DNA from: Pseudarthrobacter sp. fls2-241-R2A-127
GTDB lineage: Bacteria > Actinomycetota > Actinomycetes > Actinomycetales > Micrococcaceae
Direction of reading: 5' to 3'
Assembly: GCF_030209355.1 (NCBI RefSeq)
Contig: NZ_JARVSF010000027.1
Coordinates: 1 to 64,000 of the forward strand
Length of the DNA: 64,000 nt
Numbering within the stretch: the stretch's first letter is position 1; every line of letters starts with the position of its first letter. The notes under the pieces are model-generated. The model saw nothing but the letters and a program-made list of their open reading frames with translations, did no database searches and was not told where the DNA came from. The position numbers and the translations under genes were made by a program. Shown one piece after another: positions 20,421 to 54,977 of the stretch.

Positions 20421-21596
20421 TCAGTGGAAGGCGCCTAACCCGGTGATGTGCCGGCCCAGGATCAGGGTGTGCACTTCGTCGGTCCCCTCGTAGGTCCGGA
20501 CCGATTCCAGGTTCGCGGCGTGCCGGAGCGGCGAGTAGTCGCCGGTGATGCCGTTGCCGCCCAGGATGGTCCGGGCTTCGCGCGCCACGGCGATGGCCTC
20601 GCGGACGTTGTTCAGCTTGGCCAGCGAGATCTGCTCGGGCCGGAGGGCCCCGGCGTCCTTCAGCCGCCCCAGGTGCAGCGCCAGCAGGGTGCCCTTCTGG
20701 ATCTCCAGCAGCATGTTCACCAGCTTCTCCTGCGTCAGCTGGTACCCGGCCAGCGGTTTGCCGAACTGCAGCCGGTCCAGCGAATAGGCCAGCGCGGCCT
20801 CGTACGAGTCCCGGGCCGCGCCCATGGCGCCCCAGGCGATGCCGTACCTTGCCTCGTTCAGGCAGGTGAACGGGCCGCGCAGCCCGCGGGCCGCCGGCAA
20901 CAGCGCCTCCGGACCCAGGCGGACGTCGTCGAACACCACGTCGCATTGGATGGACGCCCGCATGGAGAGCTTCTGCGCGATGGGCGTCGCGGTGACGCCT
21001 GGGGTTCCGGCCGGTACCAGGAAGCCGTGCACGCCGTCGTCCGTCATGGCCCAAACCACCATGACGCCCGCCACGGAAGCCAGGCCGATCCAGCGCTTGG
21101 CACCGTTCAGTACCCAGCCGGCGTCCTCGCCGGTGCCGTCGCGCTGGGCAACGGTGGCCATGGCGGCGGGGTCGGATCCGGCCGTGGGCTCGGTCAGGGC
21201 AAAGCAGCCGATCACCTCGCCGGCGGCCATCCGCGGCAGCCACTCCTGCTTCTGCTCCTCCGAGCCCCAAGTATGGATAGCTGTCATGGCCAGCGAGCCC
21301 TGGACCGAAACGAACGTGCGGATTCCGGAGTCCCCGGCTTCCAGCTCCATGGCCGCGAGTCCATATTCGACGGCGGTCCGGCCCGGGCAGCCATAGCCTT
21401 CCAGGTGCATCCCCAGGACGCCCAGCTCGCCGAGTTCGGTGGCCAGCTCCAGCGGGAACACCGCGTCCTCGTACCAGCGGGCAATATCCGGTTTGATCCG
21501 CTGGCGGGTGAAGTCGCGGATGTGCTCGCGGAGCGCCAGTTCGTCCGCGGACAGCAGGGAGTCGAGGTCCAGGACGTCGGACGGCCCGGCGCTCAC
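20421..21596 (-). CDS. Acyl-CoA dehydrogenase, glutaryl-CoA dehydrogenase-like
   Basis: A 391-residue FAD flavoprotein. GCFALTEPTAGSDP is the flavin/substrate segment and the catalytic Glu lies in TYEGTDEVH. The ending LILGRHITGLGAF and the FVSVQGSLAMTAI segment match glutaryl-CoA dehydrogenases rather than generic short-chain enzymes. Glutaryl-CoA would come from lysine, tryptophan or polyamine-derived C5 compounds. Its GTG start overlaps the permease stop (GTGA, 21593-21596), so it is the last gene of a four-gene operon. Confidence 0.88.
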   Translation of the reverse strand: MSAGPSDVLDLDSLLSADELALREHIRDFTRQRIKPDIARWYEDAVFPLELATELGELGVLGMHLEGYGCPGRTAVEYGLAAMELEAGDSGIRTFVSVQGSLAMTAIHTWGSEEQKQEWLPRMAAGEVIGCFALTEPTAGSDPAAMATVAQRDGTGEDAGWVLNGAKRWIGLASVAGVMVVWAMTDDGVHGFLVPAGTPGVTATPIAQKLSMRASIQCDVVFDDVRLGPEALLPAARGLRGPFTCLNEARYGIAWGAMGAARDSYEAALAYSLDRLQFGKPLAGYQLTQEKLVNMLLEIQKGTLLALHLGRLKDAGALRPEQISLAKLNNVREAIAVAREARTILGGNGITGDYSPLRHAANLESVRTYEGTDEVHTLILGRHITGLGAFH

Positions 21597-23086
21597 CGCT
21601 TCACCTCGAAGTAGCCGCGGGTAGCCGGAAGGAACCGGCACACAGCTGCCAGGACCACGCCCAGCGCCAGCAGCACCACGCCGCTGACAAACGCACCGCC
21701 GACGCCGAAGATCCGGGTATCGCCGTACGCCGGGTCCCACATCTGCACGGCGGAGACGAAGAACGCAGCCGTCAGCAGCAGCGCCCCGAGCAGGGGCAGG
21801 ATGCCGCGGAACCAGAGGTTCCGGGCGGAGTCCCGCAAGGTGGTCCGGAAGTACCAGAAGCAGGCGTACCCGGTGAGGGCGTAGTAGAAAGCGATGAACA
21901 GGCTGATGGCGCTGATTGAGTCCGCCAGCAGGTTCTCGCTCAGGAAGCTCATGGCCACGTAGTAGGCAGCGGCCGCACCGCCCATCACCTGGGTGGAAAA
22001 ACCGGGCGTCTGGTTCCGCTCATGGACCTCGGCGAACTTCGCCGGCAGTGCCCCGTGAACCCCCATGGACAGGGTGCCGCGGGCTGTGGGCAGGATGGTG
22101 GTCTGGGTGGAGGACAGGACGGAAGCCAGGACCGCGACGACGATCAGCCAGCCCCAGGGCCCCAGGACGACGTCCTTCATGGCGAGGAAGACATCATCCT
22201 TGTTGGCCTCATTGCCCAGGCCGATACCCTCCGAGCCCACAGTGGCATACATCATCACCAGCAGCGCCACCGAAACATAGATCGCCATCAGGACGAAAGC
22301 TGAGATGACGGCCCCGCGGCCGGGCGTACTGGCGGGATTCTCGGTTTCCTCGTTGACGGCAAGGCACGTGTCCCACCCCCAGTAGATGAATAGGGCAAGG
22401 AGTGTTCCATGCACCACGGCACCGGGATCGGTAAGGGCACCCACCGGGTTGAACCACTCGAAATCGAAGGCCTGGCCCTCCGGGGCGCCACCCACGATCC
22501 GCGCCACCAGGGCCAGCGCGAAAACGCCCAGGGCAATGTACTGCACATAGGTCAGCACCCGCTGGACGTGCTCGCCCAACCGGATCCCGCGGTAGTTCAC
22601 CAGGGTCATCAACACGATGAACAGCAGGCCCGTGGCCGTGACCACCACCTTGTTTTGCGCCAGCGAACCGTCACCCACCAGCAGCCACAGATACTGGCCC
22701 GCCACCTGGGCGAGGTTGGCCAGGACCACGATCCCTGCCAGTGCCACGCCCCAGCCTCCCAACCAGCCCGCCCACGGGCCGAAGGCCTGGCGCGACCAGG
22801 TGAAGGTGGTGCCGCAGTCCGGGATGGCACTGTTGAGCTCCCGGAAGGCGTAGGCGATGAACAGGACCGGGACGAATCCCAGCAGCAGGATCAGGGGAGT
22901 GTAGTTGCCGTTGACGGCAACAATCAGGCCCAAGGTGGCGGCCAGCGAGTACACCGGGGCGGTGGAGGCCAGCCCCAGCATCACCGAGTCGCCCAGGTCC
23001 AGGATCCCTGCCCGCAATCCCTTGCCCGGCACCGGGGTGCCGGGGGCGCCGCCGGGGCCTCCCGTCGTCGTCATGTCCGTGCTCAT
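21593..23086 (-). CDS. APC-family amino acid/polyamine permease
   Basis: A 497-residue membrane transporter with about twelve hydrophobic segments. The first helix region is VMLGLASTAPVYSLAATLG, and YAFRELNSAIPDCGTTFTW is typical of APC transporters (GxxF/Y-type substrate site). A conserved FIYWGWDTCLAVNEETENP segment is characteristic of a large actinobacterial APC subgroup. The ATG at 23086 has a GGAGA site and lies 13 nt after the YgiC-like gene. Linked genes suggest an amino acid or amine substrate. Confidence 0.9.
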   Translation of the reverse strand: MSTDMTTTGGPGGAPGTPVPGKGLRAGILDLGDSVMLGLASTAPVYSLAATLGLIVAVNGNYTPLILLLGFVPVLFIAYAFRELNSAIPDCGTTFTWSRQAFGPWAGWLGGWGVALAGIVVLANLAQVAGQYLWLLVGDGSLAQNKVVVTATGLLFIVLMTLVNYRGIRLGEHVQRVLTYVQYIALGVFALALVARIVGGAPEGQAFDFEWFNPVGALTDPGAVVHGTLLALFIYWGWDTCLAVNEETENPASTPGRGAVISAFVLMAIYVSVALLVMMYATVGSEGIGLGNEANKDDVFLAMKDVVLGPWGWLIVVAVLASVLSSTQTTILPTARGTLSMGVHGALPAKFAEVHERNQTPGFSTQVMGGAAAAYYVAMSFLSENLLADSISAISLFIAFYYALTGYACFWYFRTTLRDSARNLWFRGILPLLGALLLTAAFFVSAVQMWDPAYGDTRIFGVGGAFVSGVVLLALGVVLAAVCRFLPATRGYFEVKR

Positions 23087-23099
23087 GCTGTCTCCGGGT

Positions 23100-24311
23100 T
23101 CATAGGACGATACCTGCCTTGCTGGAGTTGGCCACCGCCGAGAGCGGCGCCGGTGCGTCGATGGTGTTGGGCACGAAGCGGCAGAAGTAGTCAGTGACCG
23201 GGCCGTCCGATTCCCGGATGCCGCAGCCCACGGATTCGCCGTCCACCACCCAGAGTCCCAGCACGGGTCTGTTGCCGTCGAAGTCGGGAAGCGCGTGGTA
23301 CTGCTGGTAGCACCAGCCCTCGCGGCCGTACCCGCCGGGTTGCTCCAGCGTGATGCCGTCCGCGTGGATCCGGATGTTGTCGCCTTCGCGCCCATGCAGG
23401 GGCTTGGCCACCCATTCCTTCAGCGGCCCCGGGTCCGAGAGGTAGGCGGGCAGCAGGTTGGGGTGGTCCGGGTAGAGGTGCCACAATGCGGCCAGCAGGG
23501 CCTTGTTGGAGAGCAGCATCTTCCAGGCCGGCTCAACCCAGCGCGGGTTGTGCGCCCGTTCCAGCAGGCGGGGCCCGAACTCCTCCTTCATCATCAGCTC
23601 CCAGGGGTACAGCTTGAAGATGGTGCTGATCATGAAATTGTCCAGGTCCACGAACCGGTTCAGGTTGGGGTCCCAGCCGATATCGGACATGTTGATGCCG
23701 ATGGTGGTCCAGCCCGCCTGGCTCGCCACGTCGCGCATGTACGCGGCCGTCATCCAATCTTCGCCGGACTCTTCCACCTCGGAGTGGGCCACGTGGAGGG
23801 TGCTCATACCCGTGCGGTACTGGAACTTCTTCCACTGCCGGATCAATGCCTCGTGGATGCCGTTCCACTGGTCCTTCTCCGGGAACACGTCCTGCAGCCA
23901 GAACCACTGGGCCACGGCGGCCTCGATCAGCCCGGTGGGGGTGTCGGCGTTGTATTCGAGCATCTTGGCCGGGCCGCCCTGGCCGTCGTAAATGAAGTCG
24001 AACCGGCCATAGACGTCCGCGTCGCCGGCCTGCAGGGATTCCGCCGCCAGCTCCAGTGCCTGCGGTCCGATGCCGATGCTGCCCATGGCCCCGGTGGCAA
24101 GGAACTTTGCTGCCTCCAGGCACATCCGGTGCATGTCCTCCGCGGCGACCTCAAGGGCCTCCACCTCGTCCATGGTGAACTCGTAGTACGCTGATTCGTT
24201 CCAGTACTCGATCCGTCGGCCGTCATCCATGGTGGTGGTGGAGAACACCAGGCCCTGCTCTTCGATCTTTTGCTTCCAGCCCGGCCGGGGCTCAGACAAC
24301 AGTCTCTTCAT
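23100..24311 (-). CDS. Glutathionylspermidine synthase-family ATP-grasp ligase (YgiC-like)
   Basis: A 403-residue protein of the GSP_synth family. The pattern YWNESAYYEFTMDEVEALE, the Mg/ATP segment MLEYNADTPTGLIEAA, the VEPAWKMLLSNKALLAALW block and the late VAKPLHGREGDNI segment are family hallmarks. These enzymes form an amide bond at ATP expense. Actinobacteria normally use mycothiol (mshD is in this window), so glutathione is an unlikely substrate. It follows the YgiB-like gene by 3 nt and precedes the APC permease. Confidence 0.92.
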   Translation of the reverse strand: MKRLLSEPRPGWKQKIEEQGLVFSTTTMDDGRRIEYWNESAYYEFTMDEVEALEVAAEDMHRMCLEAAKFLATGAMGSIGIGPQALELAAESLQAGDADVYGRFDFIYDGQGGPAKMLEYNADTPTGLIEAAVAQWFWLQDVFPEKDQWNGIHEALIRQWKKFQYRTGMSTLHVAHSEVEESGEDWMTAAYMRDVASQAGWTTIGINMSDIGWDPNLNRFVDLDNFMISTIFKLYPWELMMKEEFGPRLLERAHNPRWVEPAWKMLLSNKALLAALWHLYPDHPNLLPAYLSDPGPLKEWVAKPLHGREGDNIRIHADGITLEQPGGYGREGWCYQQYHALPDFDGNRPVLGLWVVDGESVGCGIRESDGPVTDYFCRFVPNTIDAPAPLSAVANSSKAGIVL

Positions 24312-24314
24312 CGC

Positions 24315-24905
24315 TCAGCCCCCCGAGACCTTGCCGCCGCCGCTGGAGCCGCTCTTGGCGCTGGAACCAAACCCGCCGCGGCTGACAGTGCCGCCCTTGC
24401 TGCTGTACCCGGTGGAGGCCTTCGCCCCGCTGGGGATGGTCCGCGTGTAGCCGGGCGCCGTGGACCTGTTCTGGCCCACCGGTGGGACGCTGGCCCCGCG
24501 GGAGTAGAAATACCAGGCGTAAACCCCGCCGCTGCGGCCGGCAGAGCTGTCGCAGTTGGTGTCCTCGACGCGCTCGCCGGTGTCGTCGTTGAAGCAGACC
24601 TGGGCGTACTCGGGGTCGTCCTCGTTGCTGGCCACCACCGCCGTGATGGTCCCCGCCAGGAGGGCAGTGACGCCCAGGCCCACCACCACCGTGCGGCGCT
24701 GGGAGCGTTTCTTCCGGGCTGCGGCGTCGTTGAGCTGCTTTTCCCGTTCCCGCGCGAACGGGTCCACCGGGCTGAGGGGCTCATTGAGCAGTTCGGGGCG
24801 GAGGTCCGGCTTGGGGACCTGCCAGGGCGGAGGCTTGGCGGTTCCGCTTCCCTCCGGGGGTGCCTTGTCCGGGTCCTCTTTCGGGTCTTTCTCGTTCGAG
24901 TCCAC
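24315..24905 (-). CDS. YgiB/DUF1190-like membrane-anchored protein
   Basis: 196 residues: an acidic, Pro-rich cytoplasmic region, one transmembrane helix (VVVGLGVTALLAGTITAVVA), then an external domain with two Cys and a Gly/Ser-rich end containing the SRGGFGSSAK segment. The SRGGFG tail, the Tyr/Thr-rich PGYTRTIP region and its position directly before a YgiC-like gene match enterobacterial YgiB. The GTG start has a GAGGGGGA site. It is the first gene of the operon; its exact role is unknown. Confidence 0.7.
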   Translation of the reverse strand: MDSNEKDPKEDPDKAPPEGSGTAKPPPWQVPKPDLRPELLNEPLSPVDPFAREREKQLNDAAARKKRSQRRTVVVGLGVTALLAGTITAVVASNEDDPEYAQVCFNDDTGERVEDTNCDSSAGRSGGVYAWYFYSRGASVPPVGQNRSTAPGYTRTIPSGAKASTGYSSKGGTVSRGGFGSSAKSGSSGGGKVSGG

Positions 24906-54008: not shown

Positions 54009-54977
54009 CTAGCCGGCAGCCGGGCCGTACATGACGTCCATGTCCCACCGGGTGAACCCCAGCCGCCGGTACAAGGCAACGGCCGCAGTATTGTCCGCAT
54101 CCACATAGAGCATGACCCCGTTCAGTCCTGAGTCGCGCAAATGCTTGATGCCGGCGATCGTGAGGGCCTTCCCCAGGCCGAGGCCCTGCGCTTCCGGCGC
54201 AACGCCCACCACATAGACTTCGCCGATTGCCGGATGACCTCCGTGGCGCGGGTGGACCTTGGTCCAGTGGTAGCCGAGCAAACGGCCGTCACGGTCTTCG
54301 GCGAGGAAGAAGCCTGCAGGATCAAACCAGTCCTCCGCCATCCGGGCGTCCAGGTCCGCGCGGGTCAGGTTTCCTTGCTCGGGGTGGTGCGCGAACGCCG
54401 CCCGGTTGGCCGCGAGCCACGCCTCCTCATCCTTGCCGGGCACGAAGGCACGGATGGCCACGCCTTCCGGCAGCCCGGCGTCGGGCAGGTCCGCGCCCGC
54501 CGTCGTCATCCGCATCTTCCACAATTCGCGCACGGGCGCGTAGCCGTAGCGGGCCGCGAGGTCCGCGGCGGCCTCGTGGTTGCCGTGGGACCAGGCCTTC
54601 AAGCCGTCGAATCCCCGCACCTCCTTGAGCGCGCCCACCAGCCGGTCGGCCACGCCCTGGTTCCGGTACGAGGGGTGCACGGCGATTTCCAGGACACCGG
54701 TACCGTCCGGTTCGTCCACCACGACGGCGAATCCGGCCAGGTCCTGGCCTGTGGCGGGATCGGAGTCCTCGTCCGGCGCGTACAGGGCCAGCGTCAGCAG
54801 GGCGTGGTCCGGGGAGTCGCCGGCGCGCATGGTCACCAGGGTCTGTTCGGAGATCGAGGGATTGCCGTCCGATTCCTCGGCTGCCGCCAGGAGGTCGCGG
54901 CAGTCTTTCAGGAGCTGCTGGTCAACCCCGCCCCGGACGACATGGACGGGCCACTTCTGCGGATGCGCTGGAGTCAT
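54009..54977 (-). CDS. mshD: Mycothiol synthase
   Basis: A 322-residue two-GNAT-domain acetyltransferase making the last step of mycothiol, acetylating the cysteinyl amine. The N-terminal domain has AVHPSYRNQGVADRLVGAL, and the C-terminal domain has VVGVAPEAQGLGLGKALT with a GFTRWDMDVMY ending, as in MshD. TAGCCT (complement of 54984-54989) ends 6 nt before the ATG. Its neighbour is glnR, as in mycobacteria. Confidence 0.95.
   Translation of the reverse strand: MTPAHPQKWPVHVVRGGVDQQLLKDCRDLLAAAEESDGNPSISEQTLVTMRAGDSPDHALLTLALYAPDEDSDPATGQDLAGFAVVVDEPDGTGVLEIAVHPSYRNQGVADRLVGALKEVRGFDGLKAWSHGNHEAAADLAARYGYAPVRELWKMRMTTAGADLPDAGLPEGVAIRAFVPGKDEEAWLAANRAAFAHHPEQGNLTRADLDARMAEDWFDPAGFFLAEDRDGRLLGYHWTKVHPRHGGHPAIGEVYVVGVAPEAQGLGLGKALTIAGIKHLRDSGLNGVMLYVDADNTAAVALYRRLGFTRWDMDVMYGPAAG

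Follow-up and report, generated by a model that had tools for sequence, protein, structure and literature searches.

A conserved RGGFG and Gly-Gly tail beside YgiC-like ligases as a candidate substrate for C-terminal polyamine amidation

In the soil bacterium Pseudarthrobacter sp. fls2-241-R2A-127, we analyzed a stretch of 64,000 nt (assembly GCF_030209355.1, contig NZ_JARVSF010000027.1, positions 1-64,000; hereafter "the window"), in which four co-directional minus-strand genes lie within positions 20421-24905 with spacings of 3, 13, and -4 nt, exactly as an initial annotation of this DNA had placed them. The genes encode a YgiB-like membrane-anchored protein, a YgiC-like ATP-grasp ligase, a permease of the APC superfamily, and an acyl-CoA dehydrogenase. 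In our reading, which we judge to be about evenly poised between right and wrong, the YgiC-like ligase joins an amine, probably a polyamine, to the C-terminal glycine of the YgiB-like protein, and the dehydrogenase is a neighbour; that the permease imports the amine is suggested more weakly.

Results

The evidence that carries this reading is the C-terminus of the protein encoded next to the ligase. In 134 of 139 YgiC loci, an open reading frame with an RGGFG-like motif near its end stops within 160 nt of the ligase start. One of the other five loci (L164) is cut by the contig end, and in the remaining four (L184, L186, L188, and L189) the tail protein is found one or two genes away, downstream of the ligase in L184; the tails of L184 and L189 end in Gly-Gly, and those of L186 and L188 end in Ala-Gly in one case and Gly-Ser in the other. 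Among 74 distinct tails, 59 end in Gly-Gly and 11 in Gly-Ser, with glycine at position -2 in 70. Shuffling of the residues after the motif gave 13.7 +/- 3.1 Gly-Gly ends, with a maximum of 26 in 5000 trials. The motif list had been widened after a first view of the tails; with the strict RGGFG motif, 49 of 59 distinct tails end in Gly-Gly. As the stretch from the motif to the end varies between 6 and 28 residues, it is the end itself that appears to be held and not merely a glycine-rich stretch. The same Gly-Gly end is found in YgiB and YjfM of Escherichia coli and in the tail proteins of the phages Motura and Phosso.

The motif is also largely confined to this position. The loci encode 1860 predicted proteins, of which 66 have it in their last 45 residues, and 61 of these are encoded within one gene of YgiC; the other five are a YgiB-like protein two predicted genes away from YgiC (L121) and four proteins of about 740 aa with RGG-type repeats. 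The genome of the strain itself contains 25 DNA matches to the motif versus 17 for a reversed control, in a search that covered the arginine codons other than AGA and AGG, and the YgiB-like gene is the only one of the 25 with a real reading frame and a Gly-Gly end within 60 codons. On sequence evidence, the neighbour of YgiC thus carries a C-terminus with RGGFG and Gly-Gly, predicted to be flexible, that is kept across phyla.

The ligase had been named YgiC-like in the initial annotation, and this was borne out by PF03738 (GSP_synth), which was matched at 493 bits over residues 12-384 of 403 (cut-off 29.3); no other family scored above its cut-off, and no amidase domain was found. The model of the bifunctional GspSA gave 99.5 bits against a cut-off of 882. 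Among solved structures, the ligase comes closest to E. coli YgiC (272 bits) and YjfC (230 bits), both labelled peptide--spermidine ligase in RefSeq, and the identity is 40% to YgiC, 38% to YjfC, and 26% to GspSA. In the alignment, R103, D105, E119, N121, E184, K270, K303, and R366 of the ligase correspond to R316, D318, E330, N332, E391, K498, K533, and R598 of GspSA, so that the amine-site glutamate E391 is kept as E184. At the positions of S335, S337, T441, and T446 of GspSA, the ligase has T124, T126, L234, and L239, and YgiC and YjfC also differ from GspSA there. We take T441 and T446 to belong to the glutathione pocket of GspSA and also presume the role of R598; likewise, which residue of trypanothione synthetase (TryS) matches which residue of GspSA is our assumption and does not come from the alignment made here. 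Glutathionylspermidine chemistry is not supported by the presumed pocket positions, which are changed in the ligase, and the amidase domain is missing; in this respect the initial annotation, which had doubted glutathione as a substrate, was supported. Its suggestion that an amine is ligated likewise agrees with the resemblance to the YgiC peptide-spermidine ligase and with the kept catalytic and amine-site residues. By these features, the protein is identified as a stand-alone ATP-grasp acid-amine ligase, probably of the E. coli peptide-spermidine ligase kind. An AlphaFold2 model of the ligase, based on a shallow alignment, had a predicted local distance difference test (pLDDT) value of 33 and was not used. 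TryS residues have been assigned to the binding of Mg, phosphates, the glycyl carboxylate, and spermidine (PMC3581523), and GspSA phosphorylates the C-terminus of glutathione, which is then attacked by the spermidine amine (PMC6272389). E. coli YgiC and YjfC are termed peptidylpolyamine synthetases with reference to Pederick et al., 2023 (PMC12568646), and a table citing Sui et al., 2012, gives YgiC as being without the glutathionylspermidine synthase activity of Gsp (PMC12506659).

The name YgiB-like for the first protein held only in part. The tail and the place directly upstream of ygiC agree with it, but the hidden Markov model of DUF1190 (PF06693) reached only 13.9 bits (cut-off 22, E 0.069) over residues 140-188, and the protein was therefore not filed as a member. 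When its profile was compared with that of seven YgiB-like proteins of proteobacteria and phages, only 13 columns aligned, around the RGGFG motif. Membership in DUF1190 was rejected, as Pfam and hhalign both fail outside the tail, and we propose instead to define the YgiB family by the tail together with the place upstream of ygiC, which is our own definition and not that of Pfam. In an alignment of 21 YgiB-like sequences of diverse origin (actinobacteria, E. coli, plasmids, and phages), one cysteine (C104) and the two adjacent glycines of RGGFG are invariant, and C118, one further glycine, and the arginine and last glycine of RGGFG are nearly so. AlphaFold2 gave block means of 69-93 for residues 101-180 and pLDDT values below 50 for residues 180-196, with a mean of 60.8 for the whole model. 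A fold search against the PDB gave no match at E 0.001 for this domain, and no sequence match to the PDB was convincing. Inspection of the sequence by eye revealed a probable transmembrane segment without a lipobox cysteine, which is seen in many relatives, and the positive-inside rule predicts an N-in/C-out orientation of this anchor. The N-terminus of the Arthrobacter-group proteins (24630-24905) is long and proline-rich with a conserved PPPWQVPKPELRPEL-like motif that was not seen in the distant relatives listed.

To define which genes belong together, we compared 80 Arthrobacter-group loci (L097-L176), 25 loci of the family, and 15 other actinobacterial loci. As the first two sets overlap partly (L098 = L057, L133 = L058, and L154 = L059), each set was counted separately, and duplicate tails were removed. 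The closest named relatives of the ligase belong to Arthrobacter and Pseudarthrobacter strains with identities of up to 97%. A tail protein is encoded directly upstream of YgiC in 79/80, 25/25, and 15/15 loci, respectively, which confirms the YgiB-YgiC pairing of the initial annotation; in the sole Arthrobacter-group exception, L164, YgiC starts 75 nt from the contig end. The permease gene follows YgiC in 80/80, 16/25, and 0/15 loci, where the first count includes L103 and L130, whose best match covers part of the protein, and L159, whose contig ends inside the permease gene. Two Arthrobacter-group plasmids also carry the YgiB-YgiC-permease unit, with no dehydrogenase annotated within 6 kb, and the view that a transporter is part of the unit is thereby supported for the Arthrobacter group. 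The tail protein genes on these plasmids (L179:5501-5998 and L180:5368-5874) are annotated as 'tRNA-dihydrouridine synthase', an evident misnaming.

The dehydrogenase gene behaved differently. In the Arthrobacter-group set, 58 loci have it within 200 nt, and in 7 an inverted gene intervenes; in 1 it falls off the contig, and in the other 14 the fetched stretch yielded no such gene. Of the 25 family loci, 5 have it close by, 19 do not have it, and 1 is at a contig end, and it is close in none of the 15 others. Of 149 family genomes, 109 have it at E <= 1e-140, and 30 have the ligase at E <= 0.001, including one marginal case, so that the dehydrogenase occurs in most family genomes and mostly without YgiC. 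Because it is poorly co-conserved, widespread without YgiC, and not annotated near the plasmid copies, the functional unit, as judged from conservation, is the three-gene set YgiB-YgiC-permease, and the dehydrogenase looks like a chance neighbour and not like a pathway step. The initial annotation had made the meaning of the operon depend, beforehand, on the co-conservation of all four genes; only three of the four are co-conserved, and the four-gene operon was rejected for the dehydrogenase, which is displaced or was not found in 21/80 loci, while the three-gene operon stands. The inverted gene between permease and dehydrogenase encodes about 450 aa and occurs in L153, L157, L162, L165, L167, L170, and L171, which are mostly Paenarthrobacter-like.

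As for the dehydrogenase itself, Pfam detected three acyl-CoA dehydrogenase domains (89-113 bits), and the closest solved relatives are the glutaryl-CoA dehydrogenases 3swo (521 bits), which we take to be a mycobacterial enzyme, and 1sir (386 bits). The glutaryl-CoA-dehydrogenase-like identity assigned in the initial annotation agrees with this; the NCBIfam model for glutaryl-CoA dehydrogenase scored below its cut-off (172 vs 470). In E. coli, yjfC is followed by aidB, also of the acyl-CoA dehydrogenase family (L178:5029-7901), which echoes the arrangement in the window and is probably a coincidence.

The permease was confirmed as an APC protein by PF13520 (AA_permease_2; 101.4 bits, cut-off 27). 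We searched the genomes for three families of polyamine synthesis, with PF02784-type decarboxylases and other amine routes lying outside this search. S-adenosylmethionine (AdoMet) decarboxylase was found in none of the 149 family genomes, PF01276 decarboxylases were found in none of the 8 genus members and matched in 42 of the 149 family genomes, and PF01564 was not found in the genome of the strain itself. Spermidine-synthase matches with E < 1e-15 were present in 0 of 17 YgiC genomes with an adjacent permease gene (including G068, whose permease is 28% identical to that of the window), in 0 of 9 family YgiC genomes without it, and in 11 of 15 other YgiC genomes; AdoMet decarboxylase was found in 3 of these 15. 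Of all 41 YgiC genomes, 20 match spermidine synthase at E <= 0.001, and in 17 the score exceeds the family cut-off. Several strong matches are located in open reading frames of 500-680 aa and may therefore represent membrane-fused relatives and not plain spermidine synthases. The missing families of polyamine synthesis fit an import of the amine.

A further hint to the transported compound came from sister permeases that are 49-59% identical. Of 16 permease places away from YgiC (13 close and 3 second-tier), 9, all of them close, adjoin a saccharopine-dehydrogenase-family gene. At E <= 1e-20, 9 of 149 family genomes have this gene, all of them from outside the strain's own genus, and it stands beside a sister permease in 9 of 9 cases. 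In a PDB search with one such dehydrogenase, carboxyspermidine dehydrogenase was among its four matches. These permease-dehydrogenase pairs (L201-L208 and L215) form an uncharacterised unit of their own in other Micrococcaceae; a TetR-type regulator is encoded beside one of them (L203), and similar-looking open reading frames lie near others. The neighbours of the second-tier paralogues (L212-L214) gave no clue to a substrate. The YgiC-linked permeases form a single clan apart from the sister permeases (98/98), in which the placement of one very divergent member, L074, is unsure, and repeated switching of the permease between YgiC and the dehydrogenase as partners was considered and not seen in the tree. 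The sister-permease pairs, together with the gene set of phage Motura described below, point tentatively to polyamine-type substrates, and the APC permease of the window may supply the amine.

YgiC-like ligases were also found in phages, with 135 phage-collection records matching the ligase, some of which are bacterial by name. Achromobacter phage Motura (L187), Ochrobactrum phage OC (L188), Aeromonas phage AS4 (L189), and Sinorhizobium phage Phosso (L191) encode the ligase together with a small tail protein of their own. In Motura, a protein annotated as homospermidine synthase shares its two dehydrogenase domains with the enzymes encoded beside the sister permeases, and its gene is followed by those of the tail protein and then YgiC. 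One phage has a gene for an SprT-like metallopeptidase between tail protein and ligase, and the neighbours of L190, which is listed with the phage loci, look bacterial.

The features of the locus are compiled in Table 1. Elsewhere in the window, at 54009-54977, a mycothiol synthase is encoded (TIGR03448, 350 bits, cut-off 163), in line with the initial annotation. An Rfam scan of the whole window detected three tRNAs only and no regulatory RNA for the unit. Between 20300 and 25200, the scans gave one promoter-like site (0.2 in shuffles) and five terminator-like sites (2.3 in shuffles, sd 1.5), none of which is placed to split or end the unit, and nothing was drawn from them.

Table 1. Genes and protein segments of the locus, with positions in the window.
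Feature	Position	Strand	Remarks and basis
YgiB-like membrane-anchored protein	24315..24905	-	196 aa, GTG start; proposed ligase substrate
Probable membrane anchor, residues 72-92 after KKRSQRR	24630..24692	-	read by eye from sequence
Small beta-rich domain spanning residues 100-176 approximately; C104 and C118 conserved	24378..24608	-	AlphaFold2, alignment
C-terminal tail RGGFGSSAKSGSSGGGKVSGG with putative RGGFG recognition motif and terminal Gly-Gly; proposed modification site	24318..24380	-	conservation, low pLDDT
YgiC-like ATP-grasp acid-amine ligase	23100..24311	-	403 aa; PF03738, active-site residues
APC-superfamily permease, proposed amine importer	21593..23086	-	497 aa; PF13520, co-conservation with YgiC
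Glutaryl-CoA-dehydrogenase-like acyl-CoA dehydrogenase	20421..21596	-	391 aa, GTG start; 4-nt overlap with permease gene; judged outside the functional unit

Discussion

The shared catalytic residues, the changes in the presumed pocket, and the flexible glycine tail at the end of nearly every neighbouring protein together suggest that this tail is the acid substrate of the ligase, and we infer that the YgiC-like enzyme joins the terminal glycine of the tail to an amine. In such a mechanism, the ligase would recognise the RGGFG motif of the YgiB-like tail and phosphorylate the C-terminal glycine carboxylate, by analogy with the way in which GspSA activates the glycine of glutathione. The activated glycine would then react with a primary amine, which is probably a polyamine, either ahead of export or in its course, and the product would be a membrane-anchored envelope protein ending in a positively charged amide. 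The amine would be imported by the APC permease, for which the indications are weaker. The apparent N-in/C-out orientation and the lipoprotein-like relatives imply that the modification would have to precede export. Extended to all loci, YgiB-family proteins would be the missing natural substrates of YgiC, with a C-terminal glycine that is polyamine-amidated as an envelope modification across actinobacteria, proteobacteria, and several phages, with RGGFG being recognised, and with a dedicated permease in the Arthrobacter group because these bacteria do not make spermidine of their own; our confidence in this wider proposal falls somewhat short of an even balance.

Several observations speak against a modification of the tail by YgiC with imported polyamine. 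The tail is apparently exported, whereas YgiC is taken as cytoplasmic. Fifteen of the 74 distinct tails do not end in Gly-Gly, and outside actinobacteria, 3 of 10 directly upstream tails end in HA, GS, and CG (7 of 10 in GG); the four late tail finds (L184, L186, L188, and L189) came from a looser search of the whole locus after the first count. In 9 of 25 family loci and in all 15 other actinobacterial loci, YgiC has no permease gene next to it, and the permease subfamily also occurs away from YgiC. The lack of spermidine synthase could be explained by kinship, as family genomes without an adjacent permease gene are also without strong matches, and weak matches (best E 9e-7 to 4.5e-4) were found in 7 of 26 family genomes, of which 2 are permease-linked (G054 over the cut-off, G116 under it). 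Furthermore, 4 of the 13 close sister permeases have no saccharopine-dehydrogenase-family gene alongside, and for the five such dehydrogenases that were tested, the best NCBIfam model, carboxynorspermidine synthase, gave 155-190 bits against a cut-off of 800.

It was also in principle possible that the product of the YgiC-like enzyme is a small peptide-polyamine in free form, such as a thiol or an osmoprotectant, and that YgiB is a separate envelope partner whose Gly-Gly tail serves targeting or assembly. GspSA and trypanothione synthetase, relatives whose products are known, indeed act on a free tripeptide, and the E. coli enzymes are on record as peptide and not protein ligases. However, 138 of 139 YgiC loci have a tail protein, including those of phages and those with an altered gene order, the positions presumed to form the glutathione pocket are not kept, and no other recurrent peptide source was noticed, and we consider a free product unlikely. 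The combination of a disordered Gly-Gly tail with an ATP-using acid-amine ligase also recalls pupylation, with YgiC coupling the YgiB C-terminus as a protein tag to lysines of other proteins, and the SprT-like metallopeptidase gene in one phage would suit such a system. Coupling to proteins is nevertheless very unlikely in our view, as the GspSA amine-site residue E391 is kept as E184, relatives are on record as ligating spermidine, and the tail sits on a membrane-anchored protein; no recurrent peptidase was among the neighbours named, for which no systematic search was made.

The pathway suggested in the initial annotation, in which an amine or amino acid is imported, ligated or detoxified, and its C5 skeleton then oxidised as an acyl-CoA, would account for the tight, co-directional arrangement of the four genes and for the proximity of the dehydrogenase in 58/80 loci, and the E. 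coli yjfC-aidB order could be quoted in its favour. With the dehydrogenase not found or displaced in 21/80 loci (not found in 14, behind an inverted gene in 7), close in only 5/25 family and 0/15 other loci, and widespread without YgiC, we give this pathway hardly any credence; an oxidation of the C5 skeleton in the same pathway does not agree with these counts, and a modification of the partner protein is a better reading of the ligase than the degradation or detoxification of an amine. Finally, the locus could be part of an envelope-stress machinery in which YgiB binds metal or stabilises the membrane and the ligase reaction is secondary. Relatives adjoin PspA, DUF2170, DUF2491, DUF350, and potassium channels, and DUF1190 is called a metal-chelating lipoprotein in PMC11237479. 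Yet the catalytic residues that were compared are kept, and none of these partners was seen beside the Arthrobacter-group chromosomal unit, which has the permease, although one plasmid copy has a potassium channel gene downstream, so that such a secondary role for the ligase appears quite unlikely. Polyamine amidation of the YgiB-like C-terminus remains our preferred explanation.

The pairing of YgiB with YgiC, the links of such pairs to PspA, DUF350, and DUF2491, and an activity as peptide-spermidine ligase were already known, whereas the Arthrobacter-group version with a permease, the tail that is shared across phyla and has a fixed end, and the argument for this tail as the substrate are new. 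Among the papers listed in our literature search, none was found that links YgiB with spermidine or names the physiological substrate of the ligase family; the primary paper (Pederick et al., 2023), which lay outside this search, may discuss it. As the ligase family is widespread and its activity is on record, the conserved tail next door provides an orphan enzyme with a directly testable candidate substrate. If the proposal is true, proteins of the bacterial envelope would undergo a C-terminal modification based on polyamines, one that phages carry, too.

Comparison with known systems

The nearest known systems are ygiB-ygiC and yjfM-yjfC of E. coli (PDB 7uk6, 7uk7, 7uk8, and 7uka), which share with the window the gene order, the stand-alone PF03738 ligase, the active-site residues, and a partner ending in RGGFG or RGGYG followed by GG. 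They differ in that the partner in the window scores under the DUF1190 cut-off and has no lipobox cysteine, a permease gene follows downstream, and neither tolC nor yjfIJKL is present upstream. GspSA and trypanothione synthetase resemble the window ligase in family, Mg and phosphate residues, and amine-site glutamate; GspSA is set apart by the amidase domain, which the window ligase does not have, by the presumed glutathione-pocket positions, which are changed in the window ligase, and by the low identity of 26%. The Micrococcaceae pairs of a permease and a carboxyspermidine-dehydrogenase-like protein are alike in the sister permeases, but their partner is a saccharopine-dehydrogenase-family protein and not a ligase, and their permeases stand outside the YgiC-linked clan. 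The PspA-linked operons with DUF350, DUF1190, DUF2491, and ATP-grasp proteins, as described in PMC11237479, have the pair of ligase and tail protein in common with the window, and their DUF350 and channel partners were found here in other actinobacteria and on plasmids, whereas none of these partners was seen in the Arthrobacter-group chromosomal unit, which has the APC permease.

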